DNA of 64,000 nt, taken from assembly GCF_023715325.1 (NCBI RefSeq), contig NZ_JAMBNX010000003.1:310001-374000 (forward strand), written 5' to 3'. Shown piece by piece: positions 22,684 through 26,200 of the stretch. The translations under genes and the position numbers were made by a program. Source of the DNA: Agromyces mediolanus (GTDB lineage: Bacteria; Actinomycetota; Actinomycetes; Actinomycetales; Microbacteriaceae). Positions within the stretch are counted from its first letter, which is position 1. Every line of letters begins with the position of its first letter. Under the pieces are notes generated by a model. The model ran no database searches. It was not told the DNA's origin and worked only from the letters and a program-made list of their open reading frames with translations.

Positions 22684-23031
22684 TCAGCTCTCGCGCTTCT
22701 CCTTGATCTTGGCCTTCTTGCCACGGAGCTCGCGCAGGTAGTAGAGCTTCGCACGACGGACGTCACCGCGCGTGACGACCTCGATCTTGTCGATGATCGG
22801 CGAGTGCACCGGGAACTTGCGCTCGACGCCGACCTGGAAGCTGATCTTGCGGACCGTGAAGGTCTCGCGGACGCCCTCGCCCGAGCGGCCGATGACGACG
22901 CCCTGGAAGACCTGGACACGCGAGCGCGTGCCTTCGACGATGTTGACGTGCACCTTGACGGTGTCGCCGGGGCGGAAGTCGGGGATGTCCGACTTCAGGC
23001 TCGCGGCGTCGACGTGGTCGAGGATGTGCAT
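22684..23031 (-). CDS. rplS: 50S ribosomal protein L19
   Basis: 115 aa from the ATG at 23031 ([19 protein letters not shown]). The core [19 protein letters not shown] and the C-terminal [20 protein letters not shown] are typical. L19 lies at the 30S-50S interface. The leader is about 125 nt and carries a 16-mer shared with rpsP. A clear terminator follows. Confidence 0.97.
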
Positions 23032-23157
23032 GATGGTTCGCTCTCTGCGCCCGCCACCGGTCGAACGCGGATCATTGTTGGAAGAATTCGGTGCCGCCTC
23101 GCGCGAAGCGCGTCGCAGGCTCCCCGGAGGCAGGGCCGAGCAGCGGCACAAGCGTCC

Positions 23158-23173
23158 ATTCTGCCAGATCCGG
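23158..23173 (-). promoter_or_regulatory. Conserved 16-mer upstream of rplS (also upstream of rpsP)
   Basis: CCGGATCTGGCAGAAT on the minus strand, 127 nt before the rplS ATG. The identical 16-mer occurs 125 nt before rpsP. It contains an NANNNT -10-like element (CAGAAT) preceded by TGG, so it may be a promoter, an activator site or the start of a regulatory leader. Confidence 0.55.
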
Positions 23174-23226
23174 ACCCCACCCGCCAACCCGGGCCGTCGG
23201 GGCGACGGGCGGATGACTCGGCGAGT

Positions 23227-23727
23227 TCAGTCCCGCGACTCGTGGACGATGATGACGTCGCCGTCGCCGTCGTCGAAGGGCGGCTTCGGGGCGCCGGGGA
23301 CGGAGCCGCCGTTCTGCGCGGCAGCCTGCCGCTCGAACTCCGCCATCGTCGCCCGCATCCGGCGCGAGCCGTCGGCGACCAGCTGCGAGAGGGCGACCCA
23401 GAACGCGGCGACCGCACCGATGATGGCGAGCACGCTGAAGAGGGTCGCGGTGGCGCCGTAGAAGCCGGTGCCGACGATGGCCAGATGCCACGCCCCGAGC
23501 GCGCCCACGTCCAGCCACGATGCCGCTCGCTCCGATCGGGCGGTCGGCCGGGCGTTCACGAGCAGCGCCACGACGAGCAGCGTGAGGAACGCGGCCGGCA
23601 CGGTGACGACGAGCCCGAGCGTGCCCCAGCCGCCGGCCCCGAAGAACGCCCAGCCGATGACCAGCCAGAGCGGCAGCGCGATCACCGCGACGAACTGCCA
23701 GCGGTAGAAGAGGCGCCTGAGGAGCAT
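23227..23727 (-). CDS. Hypothetical membrane protein
   Basis: 166 aa, with four predicted TM helices: about residues 10-32, 36-57, 72-92 and 96-118. A polar, acidic C-terminal tail of about 45 residues ends in GDGDVIIVHESRD. The family is not recognised. It sits alone between rplS and map, interrupting the otherwise conserved trmD-rplS linkage. A TAGCCT box lies exactly 6 nt before the ATG, so the transcript is probably leaderless. Confidence 0.75.
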   Translation of the reverse strand: MLLRRLFYRWQFVAVIALPLWLVIGWAFFGAGGWGTLGLVVTVPAAFLTLLVVALLVNARPTARSERAASWLDVGALGAWHLAIVGTGFYGATATLFSVLAIIGAVAAFWVALSQLVADGSRRMRATMAEFERQAAAQNGGSVPGAPKPPFDDGDGDVIIVHESRD

Positions 23728-23733
23728 GCCGAC

Positions 23734-23739
23734 AGGCTA
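23734..23739 (-). promoter_or_regulatory. -10 box TAGCCT, leaderless candidate (gene starting 23727)
   Basis: TAGCCT followed by 6 nt (GTCGGC) and the ATG; no ribosome-binding site fits between. Confidence 0.5.
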
Positions 23740-23844
23740 ACCTCGGGCCGCTGTGAGCGCACCGGGTGTTCACTCAGGGCGGAGCCCGGAGACTGGACGG
23801 GGAGAGCCGCGCCCGCGGCATCCGCCAGAATGGTCTCGGAGAGG

Positions 23845-24618
23845 ATGAGCGTGATCGAACTGAGGACCCCCGCCGAGATCGAGGAGATGCGACCCGCGGG
23901 CCGTTTCGTGGCCGGCGTGCTGCAGGCCACCTCCGCGGCGGCGAAACCGGGCATGAACCTGCTGGAGCTCGACGCCCTCGCGCACGAGATGATCCGGAAG
24001 GCCGGCGCCGAGAGCTGCTACATCGACTACCACCCCTCCTTCGGCGCGAGCCCGTTCGGCAAGGTCATCTGCACCTCCGTCAACGACGCGGTGCTGCACG
24101 GCCTCCCCCACGACTACGTGCTGCGCGACGGCGACCTGTTGAGCCTCGACTTCGCCGCGTCGGTGAACGGCTGGGTCTCGGACTCGGCGGTGTCCGTCGT
24201 CGTCGGCACCCCTCGCGAGGCGGACCTCCGCCTCATCTCGACCACCGAGGAGGCGCTCGCCGCCGGCATCGACGCGGCCCGCGTCGGCAACCGGATCGGC
24301 GACATCTCGCGGGCGATCGGCGACGTCGCGAAGGCCTCGGGCTACCTCGTGAACACCGACTTCGGCGGCCACGGCGTCGGCCGCACCATGCACGGCGACC
24401 CGCACGTGCCGAACTCCGGCCGCCCGGGCCGTGGCATGCCGCTGAAGGCCGGCCTCGTGCTCGCGATCGAGCCGTGGTGGCTCGAGACGACCGACCGGAT
24501 CTTCACCGACCCCGACGGCTGGACGCTGCGCAGCGCCGACGGCTCGCGCGGCGCGCACTCGGAGCACACGATCGCCATCACCGACGGCGACCCGATCGTG
24601 CTCACGGCACGGGGCTGA
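23845..24618 (+). CDS. map: Type I methionine aminopeptidase
   Basis: 257 aa; removes N-terminal Met. The pita-bread fold is intact: YHPSFGASPFGKVICTSVNDAVLHG (first His), LSLDFAASVNGWVSDSAV (two Asp metal ligands; the second lies in the VSDSAV segment), FGGHGVGRTMHGDPHVP (His), LVLAIEPWW (Glu) and AHSEHTIAI (Glu). The start is uncertain: ATG 23845 gives MSVIELRT, while an ATG at 23830 would add five residues; GGAGAGG sits just before 23845. It is on the plus strand, convergent with trmD 23 bp away. Confidence 0.94.
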   Translation: MSVIELRTPAEIEEMRPAGRFVAGVLQATSAAAKPGMNLLELDALAHEMIRKAGAESCYIDYHPSFGASPFGKVICTSVNDAVLHGLPHDYVLRDGDLLSLDFAASVNGWVSDSAVSVVVGTPREADLRLISTTEEALAAGIDAARVGNRIGDISRAIGDVAKASGYLVNTDFGGHGVGRTMHGDPHVPNSGRPGRGMPLKAGLVLAIEPWWLETTDRIFTDPDGWTLRSADGSRGAHSEHTIAITDGDPIVLTARG

Positions 24619-24641: not shown

Positions 24642-25334
24642 CTACTCGGGCGGCAGGAGGTCCGGACGGACGGCCCGGGTGCGCTCGAGCTGCTGCTCAC
24701 GGCGCCACTCGGCGATGCGACCGTGATTGCCGGAGCGCAGCACGGGCGGCACCTCGAGGCCGCGCCACTCCTGCGGCTTCGTGTAGCTCGGGTACTCGAG
24801 CAGGCCGTCCTCGTGGGACTCCTCGACGAGCGACTCCGGATTGCCGACCACGCCCGGCACGAGGCGGCCGGCGGCCTCGATCATCGCCATGACGGCGACC
24901 TCGCCGCCGTTCAGCACGTAGTCGCCGAGCGAGACGAGCCGCACCCGCATGCGGGTGCGGTAGTGGTCGACGACGCGCTGGTCGATGCCCTCGTAGCGGC
25001 CGCAGGCGAAGACGAGGTGCGCCTCCGCCGCGAGTTCGCGGGCGAGCTGCTGCGTGAACGGCTCGCCGGCGGGCGAGGGCACGACGAGCAGAGCATCGGA
25101 TGAGCCGTCGCCGACGATCGCGTCGAGGGCCTCGCCCCACGGCTCCGGCTTCATGACCATGCCGGCGCCGCCGCCGTAGGGCGTGTCGTCGACCGTGCGG
25201 TGCCGGTCGTGCGTGAAGTCGCGCAGATCGTGTGCGGCGACCTCGATGAGTCCCGACTGCCTGGCCTTGCCGAGCAGCGACAGGTCGAGCACGTCGAAGA
25301 AGCTCGGGAAGATCGTGACGATGTCGATCCGGAT
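24642..25334 (-). CDS. trmD: tRNA (guanine37-N1)-methyltransferase TrmD, apparent ATC start
   Basis: 230 aa if translation starts at the ATC at 25334. SPOUT-class enzyme that makes m1G37. The knot is intact ([35 protein letters not shown]). Homologous sequence begins immediately after this codon ([18 protein letters not shown]), where orthologues have Met. GGAG lies 8 nt upstream, ideal for initiation there. The next usual in-frame start is a GTG 14 codons later and would remove the first beta-strand; no ATG, GTG or TTG precedes it. So either ATC is used or one base is wrong. It lies 16 bp after rimM. Confidence 0.9.
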
Positions 25335-25350
25335 GGCCCCGTCTCCTTCG

Positions 25351-25962
25351 TTAGTTCGCGTCGTCGCCCGCAGCGGATGCCTCGGCGTCGCCCGGCGCCG
25401 CCTCCGGCTCGTCGGGCAGCTCCTCGAAGAGCCCGGCCGGCGGCGTCACGGTGAGGGTGCCCGCCTCGAGGTCGACCTCTGGCACGATCGCGGCGACGAA
25501 CGGCACCATGACCTCGCCCGCCGCGGTCTTGACGATGAGCAGGTCCTGCGCCGGCAGGTGGTCGACGTGCGCGACCTCACCGACGCGGACCCCGTCGCGG
25601 AGGACGTCCAGCCCGACGAGCTGGTGGTCGTACCAGGCATCCGGCTCGGCCGCGGCCGCTTCGGCCGCCTCGTCGACGTCGACCCAGAGGATCGCCTTGA
25701 TGAGCGTCTCGGCCGCGGTGCGGTCGTCGACGCCCTCGAAGAAGCCGACCGGCTGCTGGTTGTACCAGCGGAGCTCCCGGAAGACCAGGTGCTTGCCGTG
25801 CCACGGGGACTCGGCAGGCACCTGGAGGGAGAACTCGGCTCCGGGGACGAACCGCCGTTCGGGGTCGTCGGTGTAGAGCTCGAGCTTGATGGCGCCCTTC
25901 AGCCCGTGGGCCTTGGTGAGGCGCCCGACCCGCAACTGCTGGGGGCGCTTCTCGCGCGCCAC
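25351..25962 (-). CDS. rimM: 16S rRNA processing protein RimM
   Basis: 203 aa from the GTG at 25962, 1 bp after the khpA stop; a GTG 10 codons earlier is also possible. RimM assists 30S head assembly with S19. The N-terminal beta-barrel has [22 protein letters not shown]; the C-terminal PRC-barrel has [24 protein letters not shown]. The final 25 residues are an acidic, Ala/Asp-rich tail. Member of rpsP-khpA-rimM-trmD. Confidence 0.94.
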
Positions 25963-25963
25963 G

Positions 25964-26200
25964 TCAGGCGTCGGTGTCGACGACGTCGACACGGACTCGG
26001 CGACCGTCCGAGAGGGCGGCCACCACGGTGCGGAGCGCTTTGGCGGTGCGGCCGGCGCGTCCGATGACGCGGCCGAGGTCCTCGGGGTTCACATGAACCT
26101 CGAGGACCTCGCCACGTGCGCTCGACGCGGAGACGACCTTCACCTCGTCGGGGTGTTCGACGATGCCCTTGACGAGGTGCTCGAGCGCGGACCTGAGCAA
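25964..26200 (-). CDS. KH-domain RNA-binding protein KhpA
   Basis: 78 aa with a single KH domain: VHVNPEDLGRVIGRAGRTAKALRTVV contains the GxxG loop (GRAG). Small KH proteins of this type bind RNA with KhpB/Jag in other bacteria. It lies between rpsP (4 bp) and rimM (1 bp), a fixed position across Gram-positives. Confidence 0.94.
   Translation of the reverse strand: MLRSALEHLVKGIVEHPDEVKVVSASSARGEVLEVHVNPEDLGRVIGRAGRTAKALRTVVAALSDGRRVRVDVVDTDA

Follow-up and report, generated by a model that had tools for sequence, protein, structure and literature searches.

A probable AUC start codon behind a strong Shine-Dalgarno sequence in the trmD gene of one Agromyces clade

The tRNA m1G37 methyltransferase guards the reading frame, and its gene trmD is essential in well-studied bacteria. 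In the window analysed here, a stretch of 64,000 nucleotides from Agromyces mediolanus, the trmD frame carries ATC at the position where orthologues carry ATG or GTG. This raises the question of where translation of TrmD begins in this organism and what such a codon would imply for its supply. The features of the locus are the following.

24642..25334, minus strand: trmD, 230 residues, tRNA (guanosine(37)-N1)-methyltransferase, the sole family match in the genome
25332..25334, minus strand: near-certain trmD start codon, ATC; at the aligned position 56 same-genus orthologues have ATG/GTG and 2 have ATC
25343..25348, minus strand: Shine-Dalgarno sequence AAGGAG, 8 nt before ATC, identical in the three ATC species
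25335..25350, minus strand: 16-nt leader from the rimM stop to ATC, identical in the three ATC species
25290..25292, minus strand: GTG codon 15 of trmD, the first in-frame ATG/GTG/TTG, with no Shine-Dalgarno sequence seen before it
25351..25962, minus strand: rimM (NCBIfam TIGR02273, 123 bits against 66), ending 16 nt before the trmD ATC
25964..26200, minus strand: gene of a KH-domain RNA-binding protein, upstream of rimM (NF002761, 127 bits against 106)

Read on the minus strand, the rimM stop codon TAA (25353-25351) is followed by CG, AAGGAG, the 8-nt spacer ACGGGGCC, ATC and then CGG ATC GAC ATC. The arrangement given in the preliminary description, AAGGAG and 8 nt before an ATC after the rimM stop, is thus borne out over 25353-25332. 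The product is assigned to TrmD at equivalog level by two profiles (NCBIfam NF000648, 315.1 bits, cut-off 220; TIGR00088, 255.1 bits, cut-off 195, residues 2-227), with predicted m1G37 methyltransferase activity. The start of rimM is our own reading, a GTG adjoining the stop codon of the KH gene. Like the E. coli rpsP-rimM-trmD-rplS operon, the locus has rimM directly before trmD and rpsP, named by eye, upstream; in contrast to that operon, the KH gene lies between rpsP and rimM. By eye, an rplS-like gene lies within 22684-23187 on the minus strand, and a plus-strand gene within the open reading frame 22804-24618, probably encoding a type I methionine aminopeptidase (map), stands between it and trmD. 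This too differs from E. coli, and the opposite orientation of the map-like gene cuts the rplS-like gene off from rimM-trmD. E. coli trmD has an ordinary start codon, and its translation is far below that of the ribosomal proteins encoded in the same operon. The regulation of the E. coli operon is described as not known in the accessible text of PMC10931766.

A protein search over 60 Agromyces genomes found trmD in 59, with none from an assembly of 840 contigs (G011). At the aligned start, 41 of the 59 genes have ATG, 15 have GTG and three have ATC. The alignment of trmD starts in relatives, suggested as a check in the preliminary description, therefore places a noncanonical codon at the orthologous start, conserved between species, in 3/59 same-genus genes. 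The three belong to the window genome (G000, 89 contigs), G033 (10 contigs) and G042 (1 contig), each with one trmD match. Their trmD genes differ pairwise at 34, 35 and 27 codons, with 26, 26 and 25 synonymous differences, and G000 and G042 share 90.0% identity across a 400-kb stretch (378 of 392 fragments). Codons 1-19 are identical in all three; since sister species differ little there, codon bias alone could keep codons 2-19 identical. In a trmD tree of 29 of the 59 genomes, the three ATC species are monophyletic with a support of 1.0, and the GTG-start genomes G023 and G028 adjoin them (joint support 0.87). A single ancestral change to ATC, kept through speciation, would be the simplest account of these sequences.

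Beyond the genus set, the best 80 of 582 named loci from genome contigs have 53 ATG and 27 GTG starts. Among 398 genomes of the family, a draw that does not contain G033 and G042, a pattern for trmD starts of the form [ACT]T[ACT] has one match, the window's own; the corresponding pattern for starts ending in TG has 246, and 151 genomes match neither. At class level, 58 of 60 genomes have a trmD match, with at least 30 loci. The 28 loci read by motif comprise 20 ATG, 5 GTG, the ATC of the window, a CTG (L281) and a CTT (L305), while two loci that the motif missed (L280, L304) have an in-frame GTG and ATG, respectively, near the expected place. In L281 and L305 an in-frame ATG lies 8 and 6 codons upstream of the usual start, amounting to a short N-terminal extension. 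A plasmid collection yielded a single distant trmD record (73.9%, Tsukamurella).

On the strength of the sequence, we regard ATC as near certain to be the trmD start codon in this clade. We consider it very probable that the gene is initiated at AUC and that a strong Shine-Dalgarno sequence partly offsets a weak, probably IF3-sensitive start. From 8 nt upstream, the perfect AAGGAG would place the 30S subunit at AUC, the ordinary initiator tRNA with its CAU anticodon would pair with this codon at the first two positions only, and TrmD would still begin with formylmethionine, as published work on other genes suggests. Initiation from AUC would be less efficient than from AUG, with the perfect Shine-Dalgarno sequence making up part of this weakness. 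By analogy with infC and with genes in other organisms, we infer control of trmD by IF3, which rejects such starts and would limit TrmD output as it does that of infC. According to the accessible text of PMC5472188, starts other than ATG, GTG and TTG are repressed by IF3. In vitro, weak third-base pairs give less product with IF3 (PMC10158994, accessible text); the initiator pair given there is AUU/CAU, with no value for AUC/CAU seen in that text, and the accessible part of PMC11497404 contains no mention of AUC or AUU.

The comparison with infC drawn in the preliminary description is stronger than the window alone could reveal, since the three ATC-trmD genomes have an ATC start in infC as well. 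Such an infC start occurs in 7/7 genomes read individually, including the three ATC-trmD species, and in 30/30 further same-genus loci (59 genomes with a match). One genome, G013, occurs in both sets, so that 36 of these 59 same-genus genomes were read, all with ATC. In the three species with ATC at trmD, only 5 open codons precede the infC ATC, none of them ATG, GTG or TTG; an in-frame codon of this kind lies further upstream of the infC ATC in six loci (L250, L251, L252, L264, L146, L149). Class-wide, infC was found at 30 or more loci, of which 27 were read, 26 with ATC and one with ATT (L245); the motif was missed in L221-L223. The infC start codons (L146-L152, L220-L249, L250-L279) usually stand behind GGAGG or GAGGAG. 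The accessible parts of PMC5472188 report that infC begins with ATT in E. coli and with ATC in Streptomyces and is autoregulated. An altered initiator tRNA that reads AUC is not supported: in 7/7 genomes examined, the three ATC species included, the initiator tRNA has the anticodon CAT together with the GGG/CCC stem.

The leader of trmD combines AAGGAG with a normal spacing of 8 nt to ATC, a strong Shine-Dalgarno sequence. Its predicted pairing with the anti-Shine-Dalgarno tail, the sequence of which was taken from recall, is -9.6 kcal/mol in the clade, compared with a mean of -5.5 for 56 other same-genus leaders, and nearly equal to the -9.8 kcal/mol of the clade's infC leader. The preliminary description had proposed that a weak start limits TrmD output. 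As regards the start codon this is supported, with ATC at the orthologous position in three species; given a perfect 6-nt Shine-Dalgarno sequence whose predicted pairing exceeds the genus average, however, the overall outcome may be compensation rather than reduced TrmD output. Such leaders accompany ATC but are not confined to the ATC clade, as the trmD leader of an ATG-start relative (L138) reaches -10.9 and eight others, seven with GTG and one with ATG, fall in the range from -8.2 to -8.9, several of the GTG ones having AGGAG or a similar motif. In L017, L019, L021 and other GTG-start relatives, AGGAG overlaps or just follows the rimM stop, and in many ATG-start relatives trmD has no clear Shine-Dalgarno sequence. 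Weaker trmD starts are possibly paired with stronger Shine-Dalgarno sequences in Agromyces. Since AAGGAG followed by ATC after 5-9 nt occurs 8 times in the 64-kb window (1.05 expected in shuffles), the combination alone is uninformative, and what counts is its position at the orthologous start; some of the other 7 occurrences are probably Lys-Glu codons inside genes.

In the three ATC species, the segment CGAAGGAG, which holds the Shine-Dalgarno sequence (window 25290-25350, minus strand), is fully complementary to CUUCUUCG of codons 11-14, and codon 11 is AGC in these species and TCG in the outgroup G007. The predicted fold pairs the Shine-Dalgarno sequence with codons 11-14 in all three, with z-scores of -0.02, -0.03 and 0.41. 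We do not claim an RNA switch at the trmD start, as the hairpin is no stronger than that of shuffled sequence.

We give an even chance to the view that the ATC start is real but unregulated, having arisen by drift in the ancestor of the clade, with the strong Shine-Dalgarno sequence keeping TrmD near normal. The confinement of ATC to one clade and the strong leader that accompanies it both agree with this view, as does the second of two start-codon surveys, each run with a codon-position GC filter. The first compared 169 non-overlapping frame pairs of a 400-kb stretch between the window genome and G007 and flagged 4 frames without ATG, GTG or TTG in the former and 1 in the latter. The second, with 390 orthologous frame pairs over 800 kb of G042 and G007, flagged 11 in G042, 5 in G007 and 4 in both. 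trmD is flagged in both surveys, with an identity of 1.00 over the residues after the start in the second, and in our judgement is the only credible flagged frame in either. For two flagged frames (B_-_795590, B_-_645239) the opposite strand holds a frame that looks more like a gene, a flag on rimM disappears at the next GTG, and the remaining ones were judged by eye to be out-of-frame or upstream sequence. The 169 and 390 pairs thus give no support to a general relaxation of start codons in the clade, and as no other credible ATC start appears among the 390, nothing suggests a regulon wider than infC. The surveys are, however, weak for unusual starts shared by both species, as infC was among the compared frames and went unflagged. 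Against drift alone, ATC has been kept in a single-copy gene of three species although one base change would give ATG, and ATC is also the infC start codon of these genomes.

The other alternatives dispute the start codon itself. Ahead of ATC the trmD frame has 37 open codons in the window copy and 35-37 in the three ATC species, with no in-frame ATG, GTG or TTG among them in any of the three; in the window copy, the sole such triplet in any frame from -20 to +60 is the in-frame GTG at codon 15. That this GTG is the first in-frame codon of the ordinary kind speaks for its use, and the enzyme would then lack its first 14 residues. We consider this very improbable. Codons 2-14 encode beta-strand 1 (residues 2-7) and part of the first helix (residues 10-14), a region of which a structure model is confident (mean pLDDT of 93 for the first ten residues, 78.8 overall), and they include six residues, R2, D4, F9, P10, F12 and F13, that do not vary among 40 aligned TrmDs. 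A start at codon 15 would lose all of these, so that no ATG, GTG or TTG can replace ATC without loss of conserved sequence. Conservation among the three ATC species extends to the residues ahead of codon 15, no Shine-Dalgarno sequence is seen before the GTG, and the one located 8 nt before ATC would serve nothing. The preliminary description was right on both counts here, that no ordinary in-frame start precedes ATC and that the next GTG would delete the first beta-strand.

The open upstream frame would also allow a start at a CTG at codon -13, inside rimM, or a RimM-TrmD fusion through a +1 frameshift close to the rimM end. This CTG is found in G000 and G033, but codon -13 is CCG in G042, and AAGGAG lies downstream of it. 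The rimM stop varies between TAA in two of the ATC species and TAG in the third, and no conserved slippery site was seen by eye in an alignment of 200 nt upstream of trmD. Either route is extremely improbable. The remaining suggestion of the preliminary description, a single wrong base in place of ATG or GTG, has practically no probability and is rejected short of a shared systematic error, for although the window genome is a draft of 89 contigs, the separate assemblies of three species, G033 and G042 differing from it elsewhere in trmD, carry the same ATC and an identical leader.

AUC initiation thus stands as the preferred reading, and by its anatomy the trmD case fits the class of noncanonical starts discriminated by IF3 that infC and sigR represent. 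Like infC of the same genomes, trmD would have an AUC start behind a strong Shine-Dalgarno sequence, with no upstream in-frame ATG, GTG or TTG in the three species. In contrast, the infC codon is ATC in 36/36 same-genus genomes, and in the 27 loci read across the class it is ATC or ATT, whereas ATC at trmD is confined to three species. infC also regulates itself, as described in the accessible sections of PMC5472188, while any regulation of trmD would be in trans. The same sections describe Streptomyces sigR, likewise a non-infC gene of an actinobacterium that starts at none of ATG, GTG and TTG and has an extensive ribosome binding site, which may help initiation; its start is GTC and is repressed by IF3. 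The two genes differ in codon and product, GTC and a sigma factor for sigR as opposed to AUC and a tRNA methyltransferase for trmD, and IF3 repression of sigR was shown by experiment, whereas for trmD it is proposed from sequence.

Experimental characterisation covers very few noncanonical start codons, according to the accessible text of PMC5472188, and we met no report of a trmD with such a start in the literature covered, to which subscription journals mostly do not belong. An ATC start restricted to one clade, in a single-copy gene with canonical starts in sister species, offers a natural experiment on the origin of such starts, on the features that compensate for them and on whether they bring IF3 control with them. 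For annotation, gene finders restricted to ATG, GTG and TTG would remove the first strand of TrmD here. It is speculative, and argued by analogy, that the AUC start sets the cellular level of TrmD or ties it to the supply of IF3. We offer only tentatively, as a rather unlikely possibility, that in one Agromyces clade, a small group of soil bacteria, trmD is gated by IF3 through AUC, so that the supply of the m1G37 methyltransferase follows the level of IF3, the guardian of start-codon choice. If true, this would link initiation fidelity to tRNA modification through one start-codon change and a new leader.
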